Source: Syntrophobacteraceae bacterium (GTDB taxonomy: Bacteria; Desulfobacterota; Syntrophobacteria; Syntrophobacterales; Syntrophobacteraceae). Taken from it: 32,535 bases of DNA. The stretch spans positions 1 to 32,535 of the forward strand of contig JARLHP010000277.1 of NCBI GenBank assembly GCA_031292195.1, given 5' to 3'. The notes beneath the pieces are model-generated. The model saw only the letters and a program-made list of their open reading frames with translations, was not told the origin of the DNA and made no database searches. Positions 6,700 through 20,282 of this stretch are shown here, piece after piece (position 1 is the stretch's first letter; each line of letters begins with the position of its first letter). Made by a program: the position numbers and the translations under genes.

Positions 6700-7632
6700 C
6701 TAGGCTGCCAGCCAGAGGGCGACGTCTTTGGCGATATAGCCGAGTTTGTAGGGGACCCTGCCCATGTTGAAGTCGGGGACGTCGTCGATGCCTCTTCGAC
6801 CCACCACGATCGTGTCGAAGCGAGCCGCTTTGGCTTCGTTGTAAATAGTCGCCGCCCGGCTGCCGCTGGTTTTGATCAGTCTTGTGGAAACGTTTTCAGC
6901 AGAAAACCCGGCGCCTGTCAGACGATCCACCGCTCTGTCGAAGACCCGTTTCATGGTTATTTCGTGCGCCAGCGTGATGCGGCTTGCAATTTCTTCTTCG
7001 AGTTCTCCCCCGCTCCTGTTCCAGGGGAGTCTCACGATGTGCGCCAGGCACACGGCCGTGCCGGAGGTATTGAGCATCTTGCACACGAAGTTGACGGCCC
7101 TCAAGGAGCCCAGCGAATCGTCCAGGGCTACAAGTATCCTGCCGGCTTCGGGTTTTCCTCCCAGCAGGCATACGGTGGAGTCCGCGACGTTAATAAACAC
7201 CTTGGCGGCGACGCTGCCGAGCATCGATTCGTCGATTCTTCCCAGCCCGCTTCGCGCCAGGACCACCCCGTCGTAGCCAAACCGGGACTCATCGAGAATG
7301 TCCCTGGCGATCCCTCTTTTCCTTTTGAGGATGTTACAGGTCAGGGCGGATTTGGGCAGGCCGCCGGCCTCCAGGATTTCACAGGCGGCCGCCAGACACT
7401 CCCCCATTTTATGTTCCTTGTATGTGTCCCAGCTCTTCATATGCTCCAGGTGTTCACTTACCGCTTGGTCCCGCTGCGGGTCCCAGAATACGTCGGGCGT
7501 TTTGTCTATGATGGACAGGAGTACGATCTCGGCCTTAACGAGGTTCACAGCCCTGGAAATATACCTTACAACCTCCATCGACTGGTCCGAGCCGTCCATC
7601 GGCAAAAGAATCAGTTTACGTTCAGGGTTCAT
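6700..7632 (-). CDS. Tandem universal stress protein
   Basis: The 310 residues contain two UspA domains. The first opens with KLILLPMDGSDQS, the second with GRILVALDDSLGS. The nucleotide-binding signature G-x2-G-x9-G(S/T) reads A-RS-G-LGRIDESML-GS in domain 1 (first Gly lost) and G-RR-G-IDDVPDFNM-GR in domain 2. ATP binding is thus plausible but not certain. GGGAGG lies 5 bases before the ATG. The gene is 61 bases downstream of mvhG on the same strand and could be the last gene of the hdr operon or have its own promoter. Usp proteins often respond to energy or redox stress, which would suit this neighbourhood. Confidence 0.85.
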   Translation of the reverse strand: MNPERKLILLPMDGSDQSMEVVRYISRAVNLVKAEIVLLSIIDKTPDVFWDPQRDQAVSEHLEHMKSWDTYKEHKMGECLAAACEILEAGGLPKSALTCNILKRKRGIARDILDESRFGYDGVVLARSGLGRIDESMLGSVAAKVFINVADSTVCLLGGKPEAGRILVALDDSLGSLRAVNFVCKMLNTSGTAVCLAHIVRLPWNRSGGELEEEIASRITLAHEITMKRVFDRAVDRLTGAGFSAENVSTRLIKTSGSRAATIYNEAKAARFDTIVVGRRGIDDVPDFNMGRVPYKLGYIAKDVALWLAA

Positions 7633-7693
7633 GGGCGCCTCCCGGGAATGGTTCTAGCGAAAAAAGGATGGTTCCTGCCATGCTAATCTTCCT

Positions 7694-8629
7694 CTATTTG
7701 CGCACAGACTGCGCGGGCCGCAGAAGAGCGTGAGACCCGGAAAACCTCAAAAGCGACGGGTAATCGGGCAGCGAATCGAGTTCTATTCCGTTTGAGGCCA
7801 GCGCGTTTAGCATCTGGAGCAATTGATTGCCGTCATGGCTGACCGGTCCGCTGCATCCTCGGCAGGGTACTCCGGCCTTGAGGCAGCGTGGAACGAGCAG
7901 GCCGCCGCCGCAGCCGCCCCTGGTGACAGGCCCCATGCACAGGAAGCCCTGTTCGAGCAGGCACCGCGTCTTATCCAGCGGTTCGCCGGGGGCGCCCCAT
8001 TCCGGGGCCTGGAGGAAACGGCGAAGCCTTTTGACCTGCCCTTTGCCCTTGCGAACCGTCGGGCAGAAATCGCAGACGCTTTTCTCGGAGAGCGACACCG
8101 GGCCGCCCGTCAGGAGACCGGTGAGGAGATCGAAGACCTGGTCGGGATGCGGCGGGCACCCCGGCAGATACACATCCACCTTTATCTTTTCATCCAGTGC
8201 GTAGACAGCGTCAAGAAGTGGCGGAAGCCCCTCTTTTGGCCGGGGCTGCCCCGCGTCCGTTGTCTCCGTCGAGTAACAGCGCTCCAATACGGCCTCATTG
8301 GTAAACGAGTTGACCAGGGCAGGAATGCCGCCATGCGTGGCGCAGGTCCCCAGAGCGATGATCAGCCCGCACCTTTCCCGCATCACGCGCGCCACTTCCA
8401 GGTGCTCCTCGTTGCGGAGCCCGCCCGTGATTATGCCCACGTCCGCTTCGGGGATGTCGATCCTCGCGCCGTCGCCAAGCTGTCCGAAGTACTTATGGTC
8501 CATCAGGACCGGCATATGGACGAATTCGACCAACCGGAGCACATCGAGGATACGCTCGCCCAAATCCACGAGGGATATCTCGCACCCCGAACAGGAGTTA
8601 AGCCATTCTTCCGCCACTCTAGCGACCAT
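7694..8629 (-). CDS. mvhG: MvhG-like [NiFe]-hydrogenase small subunit, without a large subunit
   Basis: This 311-residue iron-sulfur protein is of the F420-non-reducing hydrogenase small-subunit/NuoB-related family. Proximal-cluster cysteines are visible in NSCSGCEISL (C13, C16), GTCATHGG and LPGCPPHPD. Later cysteine groups (CDFC, GFLCMGPVTRGGCG, CRGC) match the extra [4Fe-4S] clusters of MvhG. GAGGTG sits 7 bases before the ATG. In Mvh complexes this subunit carries electrons from the NiFe subunit MvhA to MvhD and HdrA. Here no MvhA follows; the next gene is a stress protein. The protein may therefore accept electrons from a large subunit encoded elsewhere or from another donor such as formate dehydrogenase. 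It could be called a homolog of VhuG or FrhG, but the MvhD neighbour favours MvhG. Confidence 0.85.
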   Translation of the reverse strand: MVARVAEEWLNSCSGCEISLVDLGERILDVLRLVEFVHMPVLMDHKYFGQLGDGARIDIPEADVGIITGGLRNEEHLEVARVMRERCGLIIALGTCATHGGIPALVNSFTNEAVLERCYSTETTDAGQPRPKEGLPPLLDAVYALDEKIKVDVYLPGCPPHPDQVFDLLTGLLTGGPVSLSEKSVCDFCPTVRKGKGQVKRLRRFLQAPEWGAPGEPLDKTRCLLEQGFLCMGPVTRGGCGGGLLVPRCLKAGVPCRGCSGPVSHDGNQLLQMLNALASNGIELDSLPDYPSLLRFSGSHALLRPAQSVRK

Positions 8630-8679: not shown

Positions 8680-8818
8680 CACCCTGGAACCATGAAAAGT
8701 TTTGTTCCTTTCGCGGCTTCGCGTGGAAAAACTTTTCCAGACTGCTCCTCACAGGCTGTCCGGCGCACCCGGAAACCACGAAAAGGCCGTGGTTTGGGCT
8801 TGGCAATCCCGGTTGGCG
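8680..8818. repeat. Dispersed repeat, copy A
   Basis: This stretch is clearly related to 29732-29870: both share the core TTCGCGnCTTCGCGTGG and the same order of blocks. Each copy also contains an internal direct repeat of ACCCTGAAACCATGAAAAG-like sequence with an 86-base step (8681 and 8767 here). The element covers the end of the second mvhD and most of the gap to mvhG, and supplies the last residues of that mvhD. The final part (about 8805-8836) recurs at 20727-20756. Confidence 0.75.
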
Positions 8819-9243
8819 GTCCCACCGCCCCGCCTCCGCAGGGGATTGGGCCCAAGAGCCCTTATTCCACGCACAAAGTTTGTAACCACCTCCACGAATC
8901 GCGCGGCCTCGGCCGAAGAGAGCCATTCCATTCGAAACCGGTCCGGATCGATCCCGCAGGTTGCCAGGACAATTCTTATCGCCTCTTCCCGTGCTTTTGC
9001 CTTTTCGTTACCCTCCAGGTAATGGCATTCACCGAGGCGGCAGCCTATTCCGAGCACCCCGTCGATCCCCTTTGAGAGGGCATGGACCACTATTTCCGGG
9101 TCGATCATTCCGGAGCACGCCACCCTGATAATCCGCAAATTGGGCGGATACTGCATTCTACCGACCCCTGCCAGGTCAGCGGCGGCGAAAGCTCACCAGG
9201 TGCACAGAAATCCGATAATCACCGGCTGATACTCGTCAGTCAT
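8749..9243 (-). CDS. mvhD: MvhD paralog with selenocysteine at position 17 (UGA 9193-9195)
   Basis: This 164-residue [2Fe-2S] protein is of the MvhD/VhuD family, which joins hydrogenase or formate dehydrogenase to HdrA. The ATG at 9243 follows AAAGGCGG. The frame reads FLCTW, then TGA, then AFAAADLAGVGRMQYPP, exactly where family members have FLCNWCxYxGADLAG. The TGA therefore replaces the second Cys of the CxxC and is read as selenocysteine (U17). The rest is typical: VACSGMID, then GIGCRLGECHYLEGNEK with an ordinary Cys at 68. A hairpin starts 12 bases after the UGA. From about residue 131 the tail is derived from a dispersed repeat and does not look like family sequence. Conventional annotation would start this gene late at the Met at 9156 and lose the cluster motif. 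Confidence 0.85.
9160..9180 (-). promoter_or_regulatory. Putative SECIS hairpin of the second mvhD
   Basis: On the minus strand GCTGACC (9180-9174) pairs with GGTCGGT (9166-9160): seven pairs, two of them G-U, around a loop TGGCAGG. It begins 12 bases after the UGA at 9195-9193, so the loop is about 19-25 bases downstream, within the range for bacterial SECIS elements, and it has the GG expected in the loop for SelB. It is the weakest of the three hairpins. Confidence 0.55.
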
Positions 9244-9268
9244 ACAACCGCCTTTCAAAAATTGGTTC

Positions 9269-11065
9269 TCAAGGAAGCGCTTCGAGCAGCGCATCCACCT
9301 GGGCCCTTATCTGGGACGGGGTGAATCCGTGGACCAGTACTCCCCTTTTGGGACAGGTGGCCTCGCACACACCGCATCCCTTGCACAAAATGGGGTCGGT
9401 GCGGACTTTTTTAAAGACCCTTCCGTCCCGTTCGAATTCTTCCATGGTAATGGCATGGTACGGACAGACGTCCAGGCAGAGTCCGCAGCCGTCGCACCGG
9501 TCGGTGACGTAGGAAACGAGGGCGCTGAAAACGAGTCTATCCTTTGAAAGCATGGTATTTGCCCTGGATGCGGCGCCAAGTCCCTGGGCGACCGCTTCCC
9601 GAACCGTAGCCGGAAACCTGGCCGTTCCGGCCAGGAAAATGCCGTCGGTCGCAAAATCGAGCGGGCGCAGCTTGGCATGGGCCTCCATGAAGAAATTATT
9701 TCCATCAACCGGGAGGCGCATGAGATTGGCCGTGGCGGCCGAGCCTTCCGGCGCCACGAGCGGGGTCGAAAGAACGGCCAGATCGCACTCGGTCTCTATG
9801 GTCATGCCGGTGAGGGGCTGGTAGAATTCCACCGAACCCTCCTTTACGACCGGTGGGAACGCGGGGTCGAAGATATCGAATTTTACCCCCGCGCCCCGGC
9901 TGTCCCGGAGCAGCTTTTCGTTTTCCGCCCCGTACATCTGGATGTCGCGGTAGAGAATATGTACCCGGGCGTTCGGATCGCGCGATTTGATCAAAAGAGC
10001 GTTTTTTACCGCCGTAAGGCAGCATATCCGGGAGCAATAGCTTCTCCCGGGGCCTCTTGCGCCCACGCACTGAATCATGACGATGTTTTTGACCTCAAGC
10101 GGTGACCCGTTTCGAAGTCTTTCCTCCAGGTCGATCTGGGTGATCACCTTCCTGCCGTCAAATCCGAACAGGCCTTCCGGTATGAACGGTACAGCCCCGG
10201 TCGCCACTATTATCGCTCCGACGGTCTCTTCTGTTTCTTCGCCGCCTTTGCTCTTAAGGCTGATCTCGTAGTTGCCCACCACACCGCTCACGCCGACCAG
10301 GTCGGTCCCGGGAAAGAGGCGGACATGGGAAGCGCTTTCCACCTCTCGTAGCAGCATCGCCAGGACTTCCGCGGCAGGCTCGTTCGAAGGTCCGATCCTG
10401 TTCAGACGGCGCACCAGCCCCCCCAGTTCGGTTTCCCTTTCGACCAGGAGCACTTCCACTCCCATATCCGCAAGGGCCGAAGCGGCGCTGAGCCCCGCAA
10501 CGCCCGCCCCCAGCACCATGGCTTTCCTTACCAGGGAAGACTCGATATCTTCGAGCGGTTCGAGCAGGGCGGCCTTTGCCACTGCCATGCGGATGAGGTC
10601 CATGGCCTTCTGGCGCGCGGCGTCCCGTTCCTGCACGTGTACCCAGGAGCACTGGTCTCGGATATTGGCCATTTCGAACAGGTACTGGTTGAGGCCCGCT
10701 TCCGCGCAGGCGCTCTTAAAAAGAGGCATGTGGGTCCTGGGCGAACAGGAGGCGACCACGACCCTTGTCAGCCCGTGTTCTCTTATGGCCGCCTGAATCT
10801 GCGCGATTCCCGACGCCGAACAAGTGTAGAGGTTGTCTTTGGCGTAGACCACATTTGGCAGGGCCGCCGCATATTCGGCCAGCGCTTCGCAGTCCAGAAG
10901 CCCTGCGATGTTCGAACCGCAATGGCAGACGAAAACGCCTGTCCGCGCTTTGCCTGGAGGCGGGGAGCAGGAAGAAAGCTCGTTCCCCGCTTCTTGCTTC
11001 TCGCTTCCAGCTTTTAGCTCCTCACTCCCCTTTGCCTGCTTCTCGCTTCTTGGCTTTTGCTCCAT
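9269..11065 (-). CDS. hdrA: HdrA-like flavoprotein, C-terminal half of a two-part HdrA
   Basis: The 598 residues match the second HdrA module of the HdrL fusion in the same operon. After a low-complexity start (1-40) come VFVCHCGSNIAG (about 44-55) and SCSPRTHMPLF. An FAD-binding VLGAGVAGLSAASALADMG is near 184-202, then IQCVGARGPGRSYCSRICC. Two C-terminal [4Fe-4S] motifs follow (CDGCGLCLDVCP and CKGCGVCEATCP). This is the flavin and ferredoxin-type part of an electron-bifurcating HdrA. The first 40 residues are encoded by degenerate heptanucleotide repeats, and the ATG at 11065 lies inside the upstream hdrA (44-base overlap, different frame). A later conserved start codon is not available before the conserved domain. 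The gene ends 25 bases before the second mvhD. Confidence 0.85.
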   Translation of the reverse strand: MEQKPRSEKQAKGSEELKAGSEKQEAGNELSSCSPPPGKARTGVFVCHCGSNIAGLLDCEALAEYAAALPNVVYAKDNLYTCSASGIAQIQAAIREHGLTRVVVASCSPRTHMPLFKSACAEAGLNQYLFEMANIRDQCSWVHVQERDAARQKAMDLIRMAVAKAALLEPLEDIESSLVRKAMVLGAGVAGLSAASALADMGVEVLLVERETELGGLVRRLNRIGPSNEPAAEVLAMLLREVESASHVRLFPGTDLVGVSGVVGNYEISLKSKGGEETEETVGAIIVATGAVPFIPEGLFGFDGRKVITQIDLEERLRNGSPLEVKNIVMIQCVGARGPGRSYCSRICCLTAVKNALLIKSRDPNARVHILYRDIQMYGAENEKLLRDSRGAGVKFDIFDPAFPPVVKEGSVEFYQPLTGMTIETECDLAVLSTPLVAPEGSAATANLMRLPVDGNNFFMEAHAKLRPLDFATDGIFLAGTARFPATVREAVAQGLGAASRANTMLSKDRLVFSALVSYVTDRCDGCGLCLDVCPYHAITMEEFERDGRVFKKVRTDPILCKGCGVCEATCPKRGVLVHGFTPSQIRAQVDALLEALP

Positions 11066-11149
11066 GATCTTCGCTCCCTGCTACCTGTTTCCGGCTTTCC
11101 GCGTCTTGCTCCCCGCTCCCCGCTCCTTGCTCCTTGCTCCTTGCTCCCA
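10988..11149. repeat. Heptanucleotide repeat at the junction of two hdrA genes
   Basis: Six clean 7-base units lie at 11108-11149 (GCTCCCC twice, GCTCCTT three times, GCTCCCA). A degenerate unit precedes them, and a longer degenerate field of GCTTCTT/GCTTCTC/GCTCCTC-type units covers about 10988-11062. On the coding (minus) strand GCTCCTT reads AAGGAGC, which contains a Shine-Dalgarno core. The repeat encodes the Lys/Glu/Gly/Ser/Gln-rich end of the selenocysteine HdrA and the similar start of the next HdrA. A 7-base period passes through all three frames, so unit gain or loss would change the HdrA tail. Confidence 0.85.
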
Positions 11150-12653
11150 TCAAGGCGCTGGCCGCCCTTGCGGCCGCGCTGCTGGCCTGCGCCACCGATT
11201 CGGGAATATCCATCGGGCCATGAGCGCATCCGCACGCAAACACCCCGGGACGAAAAGTATCGAGCGGAGGGACCGTCAGGGTGGCGTAAAAGCCGAATTC
11301 ATTTAGCGGAACACCCAGAAGTTCCGAGAGTCTGCGGGCCGACGGGCCCGGTTCGCAGGCCACCGCCAGGATGGCCATATCGACCTCCATGCTGCGCACC
11401 TGGCGCGCTTTGGTGTCCTCATACCAGATGACCGGGTTGTGGCTGTCGTTTTCGGTCACCTCGGCCACTCTGCTCCGAATGAACTTGATTCCCGCTTCCC
11501 CTTCCGCCCGGTTTCTGTATTCCTCGAAATTCTTCCCCACTGCCCGAATATCCATGCCGAAAATATGGACTTCACTCTCCGGGTCGTGCTCCCTGGCTAT
11601 TACGGCCTCCTTTATGGAATGCATGCAGCAAAAGGCCGAGCAATGGCCGTTAAACCTGCTGTCGCGGGAGCCCACGCACTGGATGAAGGCCAGGCGGTGG
11701 GCCGTTTTGAGCGATTCGGCCCGTTCCTTTGTCCGTTTGAACTTTTCTTTCAGCGGCAGGAAGCTCCGGTACTGCCCGGCCCACTCGTCGTAATGGCCTC
11801 CCGTAAGCTCGCCGGAATTGAACTTTTCGATAAACCTCTCGGAACTCATTTCGAAGGTCTTCTCGAACCTTTCGATTTCCCGGGACGAGGTGCGCATTTG
11901 TTTTTCCAGGGTGGCGAGAACCTCCGAGACGGCCAGGTCCGAAGGTTTGTACACATGACCGCCGGTCGGGCCGGAGGCGGAAAGAAACCGTTCGAATTCG
12001 AGCGAGGTGACCACGTTGGGCAAACGGCCGTACCCGTACTCAGGGACCTTGCGGGCATCGAAGAGTTCGTAGCCGGTCGCCAGGATGATCGCTCCCACAT
12101 CCAGTTCCACAATCCGGTCTTCCTGCTGGTAGTCGATTGCGCCCGCCTGGCAAATCCTGGAGCACAAGCCGCATTTTTTGCCCGTCTCGAAGTTGCGGCA
12201 ATGAGCGGCGTCAATGGTGTAGACCGAAGGGATGCCCTGCGCGAAATACTTGTATATGGCCTTGCGTTTGGCAAGTCCCACGTTGTAGGCATCGCAGACG
12301 ACCGTCGGGCACTTTTCGGCGCAGGACCCGCAGCCCGTACACTTGTTTTCGTCAACGTAGCGGGCCTTTTTTCTCACCCGGATCCGGAAATTGCCCATCT
12401 CCCCTTCCACGCCTTCCACTTCCGAGTAGGCCAGAAGCCGAATCTTCGGATGTCGACCGACATCCATCAATTTGGGGGCCAGAATTCAGAGGGCGCAGTC
12501 ATTGGTTGGAAAGGTCTTGTCCAACTGGGCCATTTTCCCGCCGATAGTGGGGAGCCGTTCGACAAGGTGAACTGTAAACCCCATTTCGGCCAAGTCGAGG
12601 GAGGCCTGCATGCCCGCAATTCCTCCGCCTATGACAAGGACATCCCGGTTCAC
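11022..12653 (-). CDS. hdrA: HdrA with selenocysteine at position 56 (UGA 12486-12488)
   Basis: This 543-residue flavin/iron-sulfur protein starts at GTG 12653, preceded by GGAG. It opens with [21 protein letters not shown] (FAD-binding) and TFPTNDCAL, then TGA, then ILAPKL. Family members have TNDCSSCxxxPKL here, so the TGA stands for selenocysteine U56, a position where selenocysteine is known in HdrA of methanogens and some sulfate reducers. Two [4Fe-4S] motifs follow (C105/C108/C111/C115; C152/C161/C164/C168), then [14 protein letters not shown] and [20 protein letters not shown]. An insertion of about 77 mostly helical, charged residues at roughly 241-318 is absent from the HdrL copy. 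The C-terminal tail from about residue 504 is heptamer-repeat derived. Without UGA decoding the gene would be called from about 12470 and lose its FAD motif. Confidence 0.88.
12448..12465 (-). promoter_or_regulatory. Putative SECIS hairpin of the selenocysteine hdrA
   Basis: On the minus strand GGATGTC (12465-12459) and GACATCC (12454-12448) form a perfect 7-base-pair stem around the loop GGTC. It starts 20 bases after the UGA, so the loop is 28-31 bases downstream. A tight stem with a GGU loop at this distance is a close match to the classic bacterial SECIS recognised by SelB. Confidence 0.75.
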
Positions 12654-12682
12654 CAGCCTGAACTCCTTTGAGTCGCCTTGAA

Positions 12683-13801
12683 CTATTCGACCCGGTCCAG
12701 AAGAAAAGAATACAAGTCTTTAATTTTCAAAGTAATGTCCGTATTCTGCTCCGCGCACGAAAGATGAATGGCGCACTTGGGGCAGGCGGTGATCAGGGTG
12801 GAGGCCCCGGCGCCGGCAGCTTCCAGAAGCCGTTCGACCTGCATCTCCTTGGAGCATTCGGAACACTCCATCCATGCGCTCGTGCCGCAGCACACCGAAT
12901 TTTCGCGGTTCCTGGCCATTTCTTCGAACTTTACCCCCGGAACCATGTTTATGAGATCTCTTGGCGGATCGTAGATTCCGGCTTTCCTGCCAAGGCTGCA
13001 GGGGTCTTGGTAAGTGATCGCCCCGCTCCCGTTTTCGGCCGATCTGAAAGACAGGCCCGACCCCGGAAGCTCGCGGGCCAGGAATTGCGAGACGTGAATT
13101 ACCTCAAAAGGCAGCTTACCGAAGTACTTTGGAATCTCGGTCTTGAAGGTAACATAACCTTCCGGACAGCTGAAAAGGACCGTCTTTGCGCCCGCTCCCG
13201 CGATGACTTCCAGGTTTATCGCCGCCAATTTGTGGAAGGTCTCCCGGTCGCCGCTCAAAAGCGCGTCATGCCCGCAGCATCGCTCGTCGTCGCTTACCAC
13301 CGGCTCGATGCCCATCCGGTTTAGCAGCCGCAGGACGCTTCCGGCCATTTCAAGAGAAATTGGGCCGTATTTCAGGGCGGTGTCGAAGTAGGGGGCGCAT
13401 CCCACAAAGAAGAAGATGTCTCCCGCCGTTTTGAACCGGCCGATCTCCTTTGCCCAATCGGTGCGGTGCTGGGAGAGGTTTCGGGTCTGAAGCGACATGA
13501 TGGCCTGCAAAGCGCCATGGTGGCTTTCCTGGGGAAGATTGCCCCGTTTTCGGGCCGTTTCGCGATATTCGCGGATAAATTCCGGGAAGTCGATCCGGGC
13601 CGGACAGCGGGAGCTGCACCGGGCGCAGGCCAGACATGCCCAGAGCTCCCGGCCCTCCAGGACCGTCTCGTCCCGGTCCATCAGCACGCGCTTTATCATC
13701 TGGCGTGGAGAGAAAGCAGGCAGAACCCTGCTCACCGGGCAACTCCCCGTGCAAACCCCGCATTCCATGCAATAGTCGATCTGTTCCCTGGCTAATTCCA
13801 T
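12683..13801 (-). CDS. HdrD-like protein (HdrC and HdrB domains in one chain)
   Basis: The 372 residues begin with two [4Fe-4S] motifs typical of HdrC (C11/C14/C17/C21 and C56/C59/C62/C66). Two CCG-type domains typical of HdrB/HdrD follow. The second is complete (C268, C304-C305, C340xxC343). The first has C135, C175-C176 and C212 but Gly where the last Cys is expected (CPEG). CCG domains bind noncubane [4Fe-4S] clusters that reduce disulfides such as CoM-S-S-CoB; the substrate in bacteria is unknown. The gene lies between the selenocysteine mvhD and hdrA, 29 bases before the latter. HdrD would normally pair with a membrane HdrE, which is not here, so a soluble complex is likely. Confidence 0.85.
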
Positions 13802-13826
13802 TTCATATCCCGGTAAAAAAAAGAAC

Positions 13827-13904
13827 TCACCGCAGAGATCGCAGAGAGGAAATACTCAACGAATGAATGTCGTTTTCTCAGCGTCCTCTGCGTCTCTGCG
13901 GTGA
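13827..13904. repeat. Inverted dispersed repeat of the ACCGCAGAGACGCAGAG type
   Basis: The left arm TCACCGCAGAGATCGCAGAG at 13827-13846 and the right arm at 13877-13904 (ending CGTCTCTGCGGTGA) are inverted copies of a widespread bacterial dispersed repeat. The right arm is translated as the tell-tale [10 protein letters not shown] at the end of the selenocysteine mvhD. A relative (CCACGGAGACACAGAGGCAC) occurs at 29549-29568. Function is unknown; the two arms could form a hairpin in the transcript between mvhD and the HdrD-like gene. Confidence 0.8.
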
Positions 13905-14305
13905 AAAGCTGTGCCCATTTCTGCAAGCAACCGCGTGAAGGATCGCACCTCCTCGGCAAAAATGTTGCCTTCCGAAGCGGAAATCCATTTCAGCCTGAGG
14001 CGGTGCTGGTCGATTCCCAAAAGGTGCAAGACGCGGTGCGTTTCCTCGACCACCTTGAGACACTTCTCATTACCTCCCAGGTAATGGCAGTCGCCGAGGT
14101 GTCAGCCCGCGACCAGCACGCCGTCGGCGCCCGCTTCAAACGTCTTTAGAATGAATCCGTGATTCATCCTCCCAGTGCACATGATCCGTATGAGGCGGAC
14201 GTTTGGCGGGTACTGCATCCTGGCCGTCCCCGCAAGGTCCGCGCCGGCATAGGCGCACCAGTTGCACAAAAAAGCGACTATCCTGGGTTCGAAATGTTCT
14301 GACAT
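13856..14305 (-). CDS. mvhD: MvhD with selenocysteine at position 68 (UGA 14102-14104)
   Basis: This 149-residue [2Fe-2S] subunit of the MvhD family starts at ATG 14305, overlapping the end of the HdrL gene by 28 bases. The frame gives [20 protein letters not shown] (C14, C17), [11 protein letters not shown], then [11 protein letters not shown] and [14 protein letters not shown]. Other MvhD proteins, including the paralog at 8749-9243, have Cys at this site. Both sides of the TGA are in one frame with full family similarity, so selenocysteine U68 is the natural reading. A perfect hairpin follows. The last residues ([11 protein letters not shown] and on) come from a dispersed repeat. Its role would be electron transfer into HdrA/HdrL from a hydrogenase or formate dehydrogenase module. 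Confidence 0.9.
14068..14086 (-). promoter_or_regulatory. Putative SECIS hairpin of the first mvhD
   Basis: On the minus strand CATTACC (14086-14080) pairs perfectly with GGTAATG (14074-14068) around the loop TGGGA. The stem starts 15 bases after the UGA at 14104-14102, with the loop at 23-27 bases. The sequence also encodes the conserved CHYLGGNE, so the structure is embedded in coding sequence as usual for bacteria. Confidence 0.7.
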
Positions 14306-17300
14306 GCTCTGATCATAGCCTCTATCTGCGAATCGCGGAAATGCGCAAGCGAGGCCGCCCCGGTCGGACAGGCGGCGCTGCAGGCGCCACAACCCGTGCA
14401 AAGCGCCCGGTTCACAACGGCCCGCTTCTTGCCGTTTTCCACCTCCGACACTTTTATGGCCCCGAAAAGGCAGGTCTGTTCGCACTCCCCGCAGGCGCGG
14501 CAAAGGTTTGGATCGACCTCGGTGACCACCCCTGCAACCACAATTTCTTTTTGGGACAGTATCGTCATGGCCCGCGACACCGCTCCCCGCGCCTGGGAGA
14601 TCGATTCGTCGGCGAACTTCGGACCGTGGGCCAGGCCGCAGAGGAAAAACCCGGAGGTGGCAAAATCGAGCGGCCGGAGTTTGGGGTGCGCTTCCAAGAA
14701 AAAACCGTCCTGGTCGAGGGGCAACCGAAGGGTTTCGGCCAGCTTTTTGGCATCCTCCCCCGGGCGAATGGCACTGCTTAAAACCAACAGGTCTGTTTTC
14801 AGGACAATCCCGCGCCCGAGTTGAGAGTCGAAAACCAATACGTCCAGTCCTGCCTCACCGATCCGGACTTCCGGTTTTAGGTCCTGGTCGAAGCGAAAGA
14901 ATCGGACCCCCGCGCGTCTGGCTTCCCGGTACTGCAATTCCTTAAGGCCGAAAGTCCTGATGTCCCTGTAGAGCACCGAAACATTGGCCGAGGGATTGAT
15001 TTCTTTGAGTTTTAGACTGTTTTTGACCGCGGCCGTGCAGCACACCCTGGAGCAGTAGGAGTGTTCGGGTTCGCGCGAGCCGACGCACTGGATCATGGTG
15101 ATGTTTCGAAAGGTTTGCGCGGAGGCCGGCTCTTTTGCCAGCATCCGTTCGAATTCATTTTGGGTAACCACCCGGCCGTCCCGGTCGTAAAGATATTCGG
15201 AAGGCTTGTACTCGCAGCCCCCGACGGCAATAATCGCCACGCCGTGAGAGAACTCCACCGATTTGCCGCCCACGGCGATCCGGGTTGAAAAATTGCCGCA
15301 CGAGCCTTTTACCTCCAGCACCTCGGCCTGCCTGTAAATCTCTATCAGTCGGTTCGACTCGGCGGCCTCGATGAGAGTTTGCACGTACTTCGAAGGCTCC
15401 CCCCCGTCTTCGGTGTAGAAGAGCTTTCCGGCATGCCCGCCCAGTTCGGAGGTCTTTTCCACCAGCACGGCCGGAAAACCCTGTTCGGCAACCGCCAGGG
15501 CCGCGGTCAGGCCGGCCAGGCCCCCTCCTATGACCAGGGCCTTTTGTACCACGTCGCAGGAAAAATCATGGAGAGGCTCCAGAAGAGCGGCCCTTGCCAC
15601 CGCCATTCGCACCAGGTCTTTGGCTTTTGCCGTTGCGCGCTCGTGCGCCCCCTGGTGCACCCACGAATCCTGCTCCCTGATGTTTGCCAGTTCGAAAAGG
15701 TAGGGATTCAAACCCGCTTCCCGGAGCGTGTTGCGAAACAGCGGCTCATGGGTGCGCGGCGTACAGGACGCAACCACGAACCGGTTGAGTTTGTATTCCC
15801 CGATCGCCCGTTTGATCTCTTTTTGCTGATCGGTCGAGCAGGCGAACATGGGGCTAAAGGCATATTCGACGCCGGGAAGTGTTTTGGCGTAATCGGCCAC
15901 CGCCACGGTATCCACGACCCCGGCGATGTTTATGCCGCAATGGCAGACGAAAACGCCGATTCGCACCTTCTCGCCGCGCACGTCGCGTTCTTCATAGTGG
16001 GGCGGGGGTTCGATCAGTTCCCCCCGGACCCCGGAGAGAAGCGAGGTGGCCCTGGCCGCCGCGCTGCTGCCCTGAAGCACCGAATCGGGAATGTCCTTGG
16101 GCCCCTGCGCGGCCCCGCAGACGTAGACCCCGGGCCGGGATGTCGAAACCATATCCAGGGGGCCCGTTTTTATGAATGCGAACGGGTCCAGGTCCACTCC
16201 CAGCCGCCTGGCCAGTCCGACTGTCGAGGGGTGCGCGCACAGGCCCACCGAAAGTACGACCATGTCGAACTCTTCTTCGCGCATGACCTCATTTTCATCG
16301 CAGTAGTCTATCAGCAGGCCGCCGGTTTCAACCACCGGTACTATTCTGGAAATCATCGACCGCACATATCTCACGCCGGTTTCATTTTTGGCCCGCTCGT
16401 AGAACCGGTCGAACCCTTTGCCCTGCGCGCGGATATCGATATAAAAGATGGTGGTGTCGATATCGGCTTCGTGCTCTTTGGTGATCATGGCCTGCTTGGT
16501 GGCGTACATGCAGCAGACATACGAACAGTAGTCCCGGCCGATGGCGCTGTCTCGCGATCCCACACACTGGATCCAGGCTATCCGAGCCGGTTTTTTCCCG
16601 TCGGAGAGGCGTTGAATGTGGCCGGAAAAGGGGCCTGCGGCCGACAGGATACGTTCGTATTCGAGGCTGGTCACCACGTTGGGCCATCTACCCCAGCCGT
16701 ATTCGGGCTTGAGTTTGGGGTCGAAGACCTCGAACCCGGGAGAGAGTATGACCGCTCCCGCCTCGATTTTTTCCGTAACCGGCCCCATGTCGTGGGCAAT
16801 GGCGCCAGCCAGACAGGCCTCCTCGCACATCCGGCACTCGCAGCAGATCATGCAGTCCAGGCACCGCGAGGCTTCAGCCCTGGCCTGTTCTTCGGTTATC
16901 CCCGGCTCGACCTCGGAAAATCCGCTTTTTCGCTGTTCCATGGGGATCGAGGTCCGGCGGAGGCGCGGGGTCCTTTTTACGTCCGGGGGTATGGGGGAAA
17001 AATTCTCCCCGGCCGTCTCCGTCTTTTTACGCCCGACCGCCATGTCCTCGCCCTTGAGGTAGCGGGATATGGAAATGGCGGCCTCTCTGCCCGCGGCGAC
17101 CGCGCCTATGGCTATCCACGGTCCCGACTGGGCGTCGCCGCCGGCGAACACCCCTTCACGGCTGGTCTGATAGGTTATCCCGTCGACTTTTATCGTTCCA
17201 AACCGGGTGATGCGCACTTTTTCGGAGTCGGAAAGAAAGAGGCTGTCCGGGGTCTGGCCGATGGCCGCGACAACGATGTCGCACTCTTCCACGAATTCGC

Positions 17301-18753
17301 TTCCGGGGACCGGGATGGGGCTTCGCCTGCCGGAGGCGTCCGGTTCCCCCAGTTCCATCCCCACACACCGCAGGCCCGCCACTTTCCCTGCCGCGGCCAC
17401 GACCTGCCGGGGCGAAACGAGGTATTTGATCTCGATTCCTTCGGCCAGTCCGTCTTCTATCTCGTTTGGATGGGCGGGCATCTCGCCGCGGGTGCGCCGG
17501 TAGAAGATGGAGACCTTGGCCGCGCCCGTTCTGAGTGCGCTTCGCGCCGCGTCTATGGCCACGTCGCCGCCCCCGACCACCACCACCCGCTTGCCCTTGA
17601 GGTCGGTCATCTCATAGAGATTTACCGCGCGCAGGAAATCGACCCCGTGCATCACCCCGTCGGTGTCTTCGCCCTGGATACTCAGCTTTACGCCGCGGTG
17701 CGCCCCGATGGCCAGGTAGACGGCCTTATGGCCCCGCCCGAACAACTCGTCCAGGGTGAAGTCGCGGCCAAGAGCGCTGTGGTACTTTATCTCCACCCCC
17801 AACCGGGTTATTGCTCGTATTTCCTTATCCAGCATTTCGGGGGGAAGACGGTAATCGGGAATACCGACCCGGAGCATGCCGCCGGCGACTCCCAGCGATT
17901 CGTAAATGGTCACGCCGTAGCCCTCCAGGGCCAGGAAATAAGCGGCGGTGAGGCCCGCGGGCCCGGACCCCACAATGGCCACGCTTTCTCTTTTCATTTC
18001 CCTATCGGGGAGGGGCAGTTTTTCCGGGTCTACGGCGTCGGCCACAAAACGCTTGAGGGTGCAAATCGATACCGGTTCGTCCACAGTAGCGCGGCGGCAG
18101 GCGGTTTCGCAAGGGTGCGGGCATATTCTTCCCAGAACGCCGGGAAGGGGCAGGTTTCGCATGATCACCTTCATGGCGTCCTGGTAGCGGCCCCTGGCTA
18201 TGAGAGTCACGTAGGCATGACCATTGACCATGCCCGGACAAGCGTTGGTGCAGGGAGACCCGTCCAGCTTGTCGATGGCGAAGGCGGGCGGGACCGCCTG
18301 GGGATAATTCCTGTAAATGGCCTTGCGGGTGTTCAGCCCCTGGTCGAAACCGGAGGGCAGATCGATGGGGCATACCCTGGCGCATTCGCCGCATCCGGTG
18401 CACTTGTCTTCCAGCACATACCGGGGATGACGTTTTACAGTGAGACTGAAATTGCCGGGAACGCCTTCCAGCTTTTCAACGGTCGTACGGGTTAGAATCT
18501 TGATGTTTCGGTGGTTGGCGAGTTCCACCAGTTTGGGGCCCATCATGCAGGAAGAGCAGTCGTTGGTGGGAAAAGTCTTGTCCAGCTGCGACATGACGCC
18601 ACCGACATTGGGCTGCTGCTCGATCAGGTAAACCTTGAAGCCCGAGCCGGCGATATCGAGCGCTGACTGGATGCCCGCTATGCCGCCCCCGACGATGGCC
18701 ACAGCGCCGGTTTTGTGCGCTTCCCCCGCTTGCTGGTTCTTCGTTTCAGCCAT
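14278..18753 (-). CDS. hdrL: HdrL-like fusion: HdrA interrupted by a GltD/NfnB module, then a second HdrA
   Basis: The protein has 1491 residues. Residues 1-165 are the HdrA start: [21 protein letters not shown] (FAD), TNDCSSC with both cysteines (C66, C69) and a [4Fe-4S] motif at C118-C128. Residues about 166-570 are a GltD/NfnB-like NAD(P)H:acceptor module: [20 protein letters not shown] motif [20 protein letters not shown] at 259-278, pyridine-nucleotide motif [21 protein letters not shown] at about 390-410. HdrA resumes at about 620 with [17 protein letters not shown] (631-647) and runs to about 908, including IQCVGSRD. Residues 930-1491 are another HdrA module with [15 protein letters not shown] motif [14 protein letters not shown] and two C-terminal [4Fe-4S] motifs (C1418-C1428, C1452-C1462). 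It probably links NAD(P)H to Hdr-type flavin bifurcation. Proteins of this layout have been called HdrL in sulfate reducers. It starts 42 bases after hdrB. Confidence 0.9.
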
Positions 18754-18795: not shown

Positions 18796-19638
18796 TTACC
18801 GCTCTGCCGCCATAAGCCCTTTACTCCGCAAAAGCGGGACGGGATCGACGAAGTGGCGCGAAAGCCATCCTCTGGATTCCGCCAGGCCCCACGCCAACCC
18901 TATCAACTCGGTGAAATAAATGATGGGAAGACCGAAACGCTTTCCCGTATCGGCTTCGATGCGGTCCTGGTACATATCCAGGTTCCCCTGGCACATCTGG
19001 CAGGAAACCACCACGGCCTCGGCCCCCACCCGTCGGGCCATGTCGAGCAGTTTTTCGACCATTTTAAAAGCCGCGCCCGGCATGGAAACAATGAGGCTCG
19101 CCCCGCAGCAGTCCGTTTTGTACGGCCAGTCGATCGGGGTTGCGCCCAGGGTTTTCACGATCCGGTCAATGCTTTGCGGGTTTTCGTAATCGGCGGCCCC
19201 GGTTATTTCAGGCGGCCGGCTGGACATGCAGCCGTAATAGGAGACGACGTTCAGCCCTTCGAGCCGCTTTTTCACCCCTTCGGCAAGTTCCCGGAGCCTT
19301 TCATCGGTTGCAAAAAAGGCGGCAAGGTCCCAGATCCCGGGGAAGGCCGCCCCGGGGTCGTTTGACCCGTGCACGGCGGTCTTCAGGCGGTTGAAACAAA
19401 GCGGGCAGGGGACGAGCATGTCGGGATTGCCAAGCGTTCGAGCAAGCCTCAGGTTGCGCAGAGGCAGCTCGATGCTCGCCCGGCGATTTATGCTGTGGGC
19501 GGCCGTTGCCCCGCAGCAGTTCCAGTCGGGGACTTCCTGCAGCTCGATGCCCATCTGTGCGCAAACACATTCGATGGAATCCGCATAATCCTTCGATGCG
19601 CCTTCAAGAGAACATCCGGGGTAGTAGGTGGCCTTCAT
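18796..19638 (-). CDS. hdrB: Heterodisulfide reductase subunit B
   Basis: This 280-residue protein has two complete CCG domains: C9, C41-C42, C78xxC81 and C137, C177-C178, C213xxC216. Each can bind a noncubane [4Fe-4S] cluster; in methanogens these split the heterodisulfide. The ATG at 19638 overlaps the hdrC stop (ATGA) and is preceded by GGGAG. A longer upstream frame exists but covers hdrC in another frame and is not family-like. HdrB works with HdrC and HdrA. In a bacterium without CoM/CoB the physiological disulfide is unknown, and a DsrC-type protein thiol is a reasonable candidate. Confidence 0.92.
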   Translation of the reverse strand: MKATYYPGCSLEGASKDYADSIECVCAQMGIELQEVPDWNCCGATAAHSINRRASIELPLRNLRLARTLGNPDMLVPCPLCFNRLKTAVHGSNDPGAAFPGIWDLAAFFATDERLRELAEGVKKRLEGLNVVSYYGCMSSRPPEITGAADYENPQSIDRIVKTLGATPIDWPYKTDCCGASLIVSMPGAAFKMVEKLLDMARRVGAEAVVVSCQMCQGNLDMYQDRIEADTGKRFGLPIIYFTELIGLAWGLAESRGWLSRHFVDPVPLLRSKGLMAAER

Positions 19639-20282
19639 TGTTTGTCTCCCCCGGGTGAACGGGACGGGCGCAAAATGGACTTTATCTCGCCTTTTTCCCT
19701 TACCCAATGCGGCAGCGCGGACAAGCGTCCTTTCCTGAAGAGCTTTACGGCCTGATCCAGACTCCGGCGCATCTCCCCGGACTTGAACAGGCTTGCCACC
19801 TGCCGGCTCCTGAGCCAGTAGGCCGGGAGCAGACCGGTTTCGAAAACCCTGCCCGTCAGTTTCAAATTTTCGAGAAAGGTCTGGTAAAAGGCGGCAACGG
19901 AGGACAGGGCGGGAGTTATTCCGGTCTCCAGGGCCAACTCCTTGAAAAAATCCATCAACTCGGCAATCCTGACGCCGTTGGGACACCGGGTGCTGCACGT
20001 CTCGCAGGAAGCGCATATCCAGATGGTGCGCGATCTTAATACTTCGTCTTTTTGGCCGAGAAGGGCCAACCGGATGATACGGTCCGGAAAAATGTCCATG
20101 GCAAAGCTCACCGGGCAGCCGTTGGTGCATTTGCGGCACTGGAAGCAATGCGTGGCATTGAACGGCCCGGCGGCCTCGACAGCGGCCAGGAAATCGAAAT
20201 CGGGCGATAAAAAAGGCTGGAGCGCTGTTCCGGTAATTTCAACGCCTGCGCTGCTTGCGACTATCCGATCGTCTTCAGCCAT
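19635..20282 (-). CDS. hdrC: Heterodisulfide reductase subunit C
   Basis: This 215-residue protein carries two [4Fe-4S] motifs, C46/C49/C52/C56 (CFQCRKCTNGCP) and C90/C93/C96/C100 (CASCETCSTRCP), which define HdrC. It shuttles electrons from HdrA to HdrB. The start at ATG 20282 (MAEDD) is favoured because GAGGG at 20290-20294 is 7 bases upstream. The alternatives at 20288 and TTG 20303 are too close to, or ahead of, that ribosome site. It is the first gene of the hdr operon, and its stop overlaps the hdrB start. Confidence 0.92.
   Translation of the reverse strand: MAEDDRIVASSAGVEITGTALQPFLSPDFDFLAAVEAAGPFNATHCFQCRKCTNGCPVSFAMDIFPDRIIRLALLGQKDEVLRSRTIWICASCETCSTRCPNGVRIAELMDFFKELALETGITPALSSVAAFYQTFLENLKLTGRVFETGLLPAYWLRSRQVASLFKSGEMRRSLDQAVKLFRKGRLSALPHWVREKGEIKSILRPSRSPGGDKQ

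Follow-up and report, generated by a model that had tools for sequence, protein, structure and literature searches.

The stretch of DNA analysed here, a 32,535-nt contig of a Syntrophobacteraceae bacterium (JARLHP010000277.1, assembly GCA_031292195.1; hereafter the window, at its full length), encodes two MvhD proteins in which a predicted selenocysteine (Sec) and a cysteine exchange places. The gene upstream in the direction of transcription, D2 (MvhD-A), is predicted to encode Cys17 and Sec68, and the downstream gene, D1 (MvhD-B), Sec17 and Cys68. This arrangement is real and recurrent, with a fixed order of the two types in related genomes. Below, states are written as the residue at column 17 followed by that at column 68, so that D2 is Cys/Sec and D1 Sec/Cys. 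The two genes and their diagnostic codons are as follows.

8749..9243, minus strand: D1 (MvhD-B), a predicted Sec17/Cys68 MvhD/FlpD protein of 164 residues, matching PF02662 positions 1-123
9193..9195, minus strand: TGA codon 17 of D1 (predicted Sec)
9040..9042, minus strand: Cys codon 68 of D1 (TGC)
13856..14305, minus strand: D2 (MvhD-A), a predicted Cys17/Sec68 MvhD/FlpD protein of 149 residues
14255..14257, minus strand: Cys codon 17 of D2 (TGC)
14102..14104, minus strand: TGA codon 68 of D2 (predicted Sec)

Both genes open with ATG (at 9243 for D1 and 14305 for D2, minus strand) and close with a TGA stop (8751-8749 and 13858-13856, respectively). The PF02662 profile covers each protein over all 123 positions, in-frame TGA included, with scores of 162.9 bits for D2 and 159.6 bits for D1 against a cut-off of 22.3, and the Cys/Sec columns of MvhD/FlpD proteins (14, 17, 43, 68 and 73) are all present in both. 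D1 and D2 share 45% identity and align without a gap up to residue 137, so the assignment of columns 17 and 68 does not depend on the start codons chosen. An earlier, sequence-only reading of this DNA had claimed that the two proteins match residue for residue and that each has a single predicted Sec at the position of the other's cysteine, and on both counts it was borne out. A single mirrored pair would by itself be unsurprising, since 12 of 21 random draws of two single-Sec genes from the window's own genome are mirrored; that genome has 19 PF02662 matches with states read in 16, among them 4 Cys/Sec and 3 Sec/Cys. A dispersed repeat, which matches 16 places in the genome including this one, encodes the C-terminal tail of D2 (window 13820-13912).

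Each in-frame TGA is followed by a hairpin resembling the bacterial selenocysteine insertion sequence (SECIS).

9161..9179, minus strand: SECIS-like hairpin 3' of Sec17 in D1, with a 6-bp stem and a 7-nt loop
14069..14085, minus strand: SECIS-like hairpin 3' of Sec68 in D2

Folded singly and compared with shuffled sequences these hairpins are weak (z -0.74 in D1 and -1.94 in D2), so that the evidence they offer lies in their conserved register. At site 68 the stem TTACC-N5-GGTAA (G-U pairs allowed), at a fixed distance, occurred in all 67 distinct Sec68 genes from the window's family as against 4 of 79 Cys68 genes. One of two fixed stems was found at site 17 in 35 of the 56 distinct Sec17 genes in the family as opposed to 1 of 91 Cys17 genes; a looser criterion, any stem of at least 5 bp, gave poorer separation (49/56 versus 47/91). 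Six Sec17 genes of a type with GCHFG at site 68 share a different common sequence, and one of the six (G000:C59) falls outside both site-17 registers. TGA stands at the same codons, 17 and 68, in many relatives. The window's genome has a SelB match of 368 bits (cut-off 242) and a tRNA-Sec match of 74 bits (gathering cut-off 47), with 3 of 9 tRNA-Sec matches passing; among 14 control genomes the cut-offs were exceeded by SelB in 2 and by the tRNA-Sec model in 5, and the tRNA-Sec match is the weaker sign of the two. A UGA in a conserved frame with a SECIS-like hairpin behind it, in a genome with SelB and tRNA-Sec matches, is what is expected of a bacterial selenoprotein, and Sec would be incorporated in both D1 and D2.

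To place the pair among its relatives we drew on a census of 364 PF02662 matches in 26 genomes of the window's family, of which 254 were entered and 110 dropped, the latter being weaker rows without TGA, many in long frames resembling those with Asp17 or Ser17, together with partial matches (3 with TGA); weak rows with TGA were kept more readily than weak rows without. MvhD genes bearing TGA occur in all 26 genomes. Taking as adjacent any two census genes on the same strand and less than 8 kb apart, 37 pairs were found in 18 genomes. In 22 of these, distributed over 15 of the 26 genomes, a Cys/Sec gene lies upstream and a Sec/Cys gene downstream, while the reverse order was found in none of the 37. 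The other pairs comprise 3 of Cys/Sec then Sec/Sec, 3 of Cys/Sec then Cys/Cys, 2 of Sec/Cys then Sec/Cys, 1 of Cys/Cys then Sec/Cys and 6 with TGA in neither gene (1 read, 5 not). When states were shuffled within genomes (2000 times), mirrored pairs in either order averaged 4.0 and reached at most 11, against the 22 observed, and it is thus the recurrence of the mirrored pair that is surprising rather than any one instance of it. The pair is present in two genomes that each consist of a single contig, twice in G025 and once in G002, so in these it does not arise from an assembly join. Loci picked for a Sec/Sec gene gave a related order, Cys/Sec then Sec/Sec, in 11 cases (10 of them new, L055 being taken as the same place as G008:C94). 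Desulfosediminicola flagellatus (L135) shows this order. Of the other loci, Cys/Cys comes first in L066, the upstream gene is incomplete in L093 and L140, and in L094 a Sec/Sec gene precedes a Thr17/Cys68 gene. As these loci were chosen for Sec/Sec, they cannot show how frequent Sec/Cys is in the downstream gene.

The simplest reading of these observations is that tandem HdrA modules each carry their own MvhD lineage. We put at about 0.6 the probability that the window holds a tandem of two HdrA-MvhD modules, each having an MvhD type of its own, and that the order has been kept as the tandem module has been kept. D1 and D2 would then be the [2Fe-2S] connector subunits of two tandem HdrA modules in one operon, each MvhD lineage having one fixed Sec site. 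MvhD-A (Cys17/Sec68) would pair with the upstream HdrL-type HdrA, and MvhD-B (Sec17) with a Sec-containing HdrA, a second HdrA-like protein and MvhG. Conservation of the order, Cys17/Sec68 first and Sec17 second, would follow from retention of the tandem module, and the exact mirror would arise where the downstream protein has Cys68, which in D1 probably arose by reversion from Sec/Sec. In solved relatives of MvhD a [2Fe-2S] cluster lies near the bifurcating flavin adenine dinucleotide (FAD) of HdrA (PMC12350162; here and below, published work is cited from the portions of text surveyed), and by analogy D1 and D2 may hold such a cluster and pass electrons to HdrA; selenium at or beside the cluster would tune or protect that transfer. 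The surrounding genes, read in the direction of transcription on the minus strand from 20148 to 7694, are as follows.

18796..20148, minus strand: HdrB-like CCG-domain protein, upstream of the HdrL-type HdrA
14278..18753, minus strand: HdrL-type HdrA fused to a GltD-like domain, overlapping the start of D2
12683..13801, minus strand: CCG-domain Fe-S protein (HdrB/HdrC or GlpC-like), between D2 and HdrA
11022..12653, minus strand: HdrA with its own in-frame TGA, codon 56 at 12488-12486, in the motif TNDCALU
9269..11065, minus strand: second HdrA-like protein (FAD domain and 4Fe-4S), directly upstream of D1
7694..8629, minus strand: MvhG-like small subunit (Oxidored_q6), downstream of D1

From their order and common strand these genes probably form one operon. 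The HdrL-type HdrA has Cys at the motif where the other HdrA has a predicted Sec. The junction of HdrA and the second HdrA-like gene (window 10979-11160) is taken up by a degenerate repeat, spaced at 14, 21 and 35 nt, that encodes the end of the former and the start of the latter. A scan of the window for MvhA motifs found none; within window 6700-8629 the gene that comes after the MvhG-like gene encodes a universal stress protein, not MvhA, and PF00374 matches in the genome lie only on two other contigs, C100 and C160. Elsewhere, an extra Sec17/Cys68 MvhD copy in G025 and G019 adjoins MvhA motifs with an in-frame TGA, and a further Cys17/Sec68 MvhD (G000:C160:11478-14204) lies near an MvhA-like match, also with an in-frame TGA.

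The Sec motif of the nearest upstream HdrA was also compared with the state of each MvhD. In the family, Sec-HdrA and Cys-HdrA precede 10 and 10 Cys/Cys genes, 20 and 14 Cys/Sec, 7 and 11 Sec/Cys, and 4 and 0 Sec/Sec genes, respectively, leaving out 36 incomplete contexts (8 Cys/Cys, 17 Cys/Sec, 7 Sec/Cys, 1 Sec/Sec and 3 others) as well as 9 rows in which no HdrA motif lies within 7 kb (1 Cys/Cys, 1 Cys/Sec and 7 Sec/Cys). Among the matches listed from a separate scan for Sec/Sec genes, Sec-HdrA precedes 85 and Cys-HdrA 2, with 41 incomplete contexts and 1 motif-less row left out. A rule that Sec17 goes with Sec-HdrA, which had held in 9 of 9 family cases at first, failed on the 11 Sec/Cys genes that follow a Cys-HdrA, and there is no general HdrA rule for Sec17.

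The history of the two lineages was followed on a tree of 214 rows, in which the upstream proteins fall in one group of 58 (54 Cys/Sec and 4 Cys/Cys; support 88, not starred) and the downstream proteins are spread over several; site 17 requires at least 7 changes on this tree and site 68 at least 13. The starred clade of 12 rows that contains D1 mixes three states (5 Sec/Cys, 5 Cys/Sec and 2 Sec/Sec), which means that the mirror states interconvert, plausibly by way of Sec/Sec. D1 itself may carry a trace of such a change.

9008..9022, minus strand: SECIS-like hairpin after Cys68 of D1 (TTACC-N5-GGTAA), a possible fossil

The 4 of 79 distinct family Cys68 genes that have the stem are D1, its sister in G022 and two genes of another type, and the exact core of the hairpin was found in 1 of 64 Cys68 genes, namely D1. 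The hairpin is suggestive, though only that, of a recently lost Sec68.

Several points weigh against the tandem-module reading. The 22 mirrored pairs represent far fewer than 22 independent events, since by the sequence around the two sites they belong to three operon types, and the deep forks of the tree are weak. Of the 28 pairs that start with Cys/Sec, 3 have Cys/Cys downstream, and 2 pairs are Sec/Cys twice over, 1 is Cys/Cys then Sec/Cys and 6 are TGA-free. Many single-Sec genes have no MvhD neighbour on the same strand within 8 kb (36 of 64 Cys/Sec and 27 of 52 Sec/Cys, some at contig ends), and 133 of the census genes have no TGA, 29 of them read as Cys/Cys and 104 unread. The Sec state of HdrA does not track that of MvhD, and the hairpin behind Cys68 of D1 could be chance codon use.

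A possible, if tentative, alternative is one of translational economy, in which the read-through cost of each UGA favours one Sec per bacterial MvhD and the site retained varies by lineage. Its premise is that a bacterial UGA needs its own SECIS hairpin just downstream, whereas in archaea a SECIS in the 3' untranslated region (UTR) can serve all UGAs and would make Sec/Sec cheap and common. We scanned the contigs of 84,980 species genomes, short contigs not included, for Sec17/Sec68 genes and found at least 119, all scored as MvhD; of the matches listed, 72 are archaeal and 47 bacterial by record title. Among these, a local hairpin follows site 17 in 45 and site 68 in 42 of the 47 bacterial genes, and neither site in any of the 72 archaeal genes. 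Two-TGA rows outnumbered one-TGA rows 11 to 1 in 6 archaea, whereas 10 bacteria had 10 of the former and 29 of the latter (Fisher 7e-5, uncorrected for kinship), as counted by eye in genomes picked for one Sec/Sec gene, with most rows unread, one partial two-TGA row included and one partial one-TGA row excluded. Sec/Sec is also scarce in the window's family: the census holds 5 Sec/Sec, 52 Sec/Cys and 64 Cys/Sec genes beside the 133 without TGA, where independence of the two sites predicts 15.5 Sec/Sec (Fisher p 3e-4 over 254 matches, uncorrected for kinship). With the 107 dropped matches other than the 3 partial ones with TGA counted as lacking TGA, 10.9 are expected and the p value rises to 0.03, likewise uncorrected for kinship, which weakens this support. 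An earlier table of 150 rows (5 Sec/Sec, 27 Sec/Cys, 33 Cys/Sec and 85 without TGA) had pointed to no depletion (p 0.18), an outcome that the fuller census displaced, and Sec/Sec depletion in the family is likely but not firm. Economy leaves the order, Sec68 first and Sec17 second, unexplained, and Sec/Sec is present in downstream proteins of other bacteria. These comparisons suggest a cost per UGA in bacteria; such a cost would account for proteins with a single Sec but not for the pair's order.

A selected division of labour, in which both MvhD proteins sit in one tandem Hdr complex with Sec68 suited to one redox branch and Sec17 to the other, is a more doubtful proposition. The order recurs in other bacteria as well as in the family, where three operon types show it, and the two sites differ in tolerance. 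In a survey of 278 distinct MvhD matches, a set enriched for Sec/Sec, 5 lacked some of the columns; in the 273 used, columns 14, 43 and 73 are Cys throughout, predicted Sec occurs only at column 17 (153) and column 68 (188), and column 17 alone is ever another residue (Asp in 2, Ser in 1 and Thr in 1, or 4 of 273), which hints that, if four of the five cysteines hold the cluster, position 17 is the dispensable one. Such MvhD-like domains, in which column 17 is Asp, Ser or Thr and columns 14, 43, 68 and 73 are still Cys, come from L014, L015, L017 and L094. The proposal that selenium tunes two different redox branches, put forward in the sequence-only reading, gains in its two-branch part from the ordered pair, seen 22 times across 15 genomes of the 26 and in no case reversed. 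Against it, many Cys/Sec and Sec/Cys genes are solitary, and co-inheritance of a few tandem modules yields the same pattern. It is possible, though unproven, that selection has acted for two electron branches. These strands could be joined, in that tandem Hdr modules of sulfate reducers and syntrophs would use connectors in a fixed order, Sec68 then Sec17, the two sites mattering for two electron branches, while the UGA-local SECIS pushes bacteria to a single Sec and archaea with a shared 3' UTR SECIS keep both; as a whole, this too we regard as doubtful.

That Sec17 and Sec68 exclude each other within one protein is very improbable. The same early reading had suggested, as one of two possibilities, that the two sites are coupled, and had named an abundance of Sec/Sec proteins as a result that would speak against it; as mutual exclusion, coupling did not withstand the 119 or more Sec/Sec genes. 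In the window's family Sec/Sec proteins are fewer than independence predicts (5 observed against 15.5 or 10.9, by the rows counted); independent-pair tests on trees were trendless, with too few pairs to reach 0.05. That both TGAs are genuine stops or errors in broken genes is extremely improbable: both genes do also terminate with TGA and the hairpins fold weakly when taken singly, but codons, reading frame and hairpin register are common to many relatives and the genome has Sec machinery (SelB and a tRNA-Sec match).

Much of this setting is known. Earlier work has described the operon, the CxxU motif and the presence of Sec in MvhD/FrhD, some members having two or more (PMC2702500, PMC13188914, PMC6019823, PMC11227280, PMC2933860, PMC1794560, PMC5029168, PMC9312934, PMC12054007, PMC12350162, PMC2398784). 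The CxxU motif of MvhD is given in PMC2398784 and in PMC13188914, the latter showing an example entry with two Sec and listing several Sec for some members from archaea. The archaeal SECIS lies in the 3' UTR, and almost all adjoining hdrA and frhD genes of Asgard archaea share one (PMC11227280). The window's pair belongs to the same family as the MvhD/VhuD/FrhD selenoproteins (PF02662, FlpD) and has the same five Cys columns, and differs in having one predicted Sec in each protein at different sites. An ordered split of two Sec sites between neighbouring MvhD genes was not found described in the portions of literature searched. Natural pairs of similar Fe-S proteins with selenium shifted between conserved Cys columns offer a test of the role of Sec in a [2Fe-2S] protein, and a testable reason why the same protein differs in Sec number between bacteria and archaea.

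Among the closest known arrangements is the five-gene operon glpC-hdrA-frhD-frhG-frhA of Deltaproteobacteria (Zhang et al. 2006, PMC1794560), a source that reports 8 Sec FrhD and 7 Sec HdrA in Syntrophobacter fumaroxidans and counts Sec/Cys conversions for FrhD, without the site of each Sec in the text surveyed. The downstream module of the window has the same order (CCG protein, HdrA, HdrA-like protein, MvhD, MvhG). It differs in that the motif scan of the window found no terminal MvhA/FrhA, in that the CCG protein of the known operon is a selenoprotein whereas the window's CCG gene has no in-frame TGA, and in the additional HdrL-MvhD module upstream. In Desulfobacterium autotrophicum HRM2, mvhD follows every HdrA/HdrL gene except HdrA4 and there are four Sec MvhD proteins (PMC2702500); these HdrL/HdrA-MvhD loci are like the window, with Sec positions absent from the text surveyed. 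The structures of MvhAGD-HdrABC, Fdh-Hdr and Elp-Hdr (5ODC, 7BKB, 8RVU) are not described, in the portions surveyed, as tandems of two MvhD types; their chains match D2 within residues 1-132, and of the six sequences matched, the four aligned chains have Cys at both sites.

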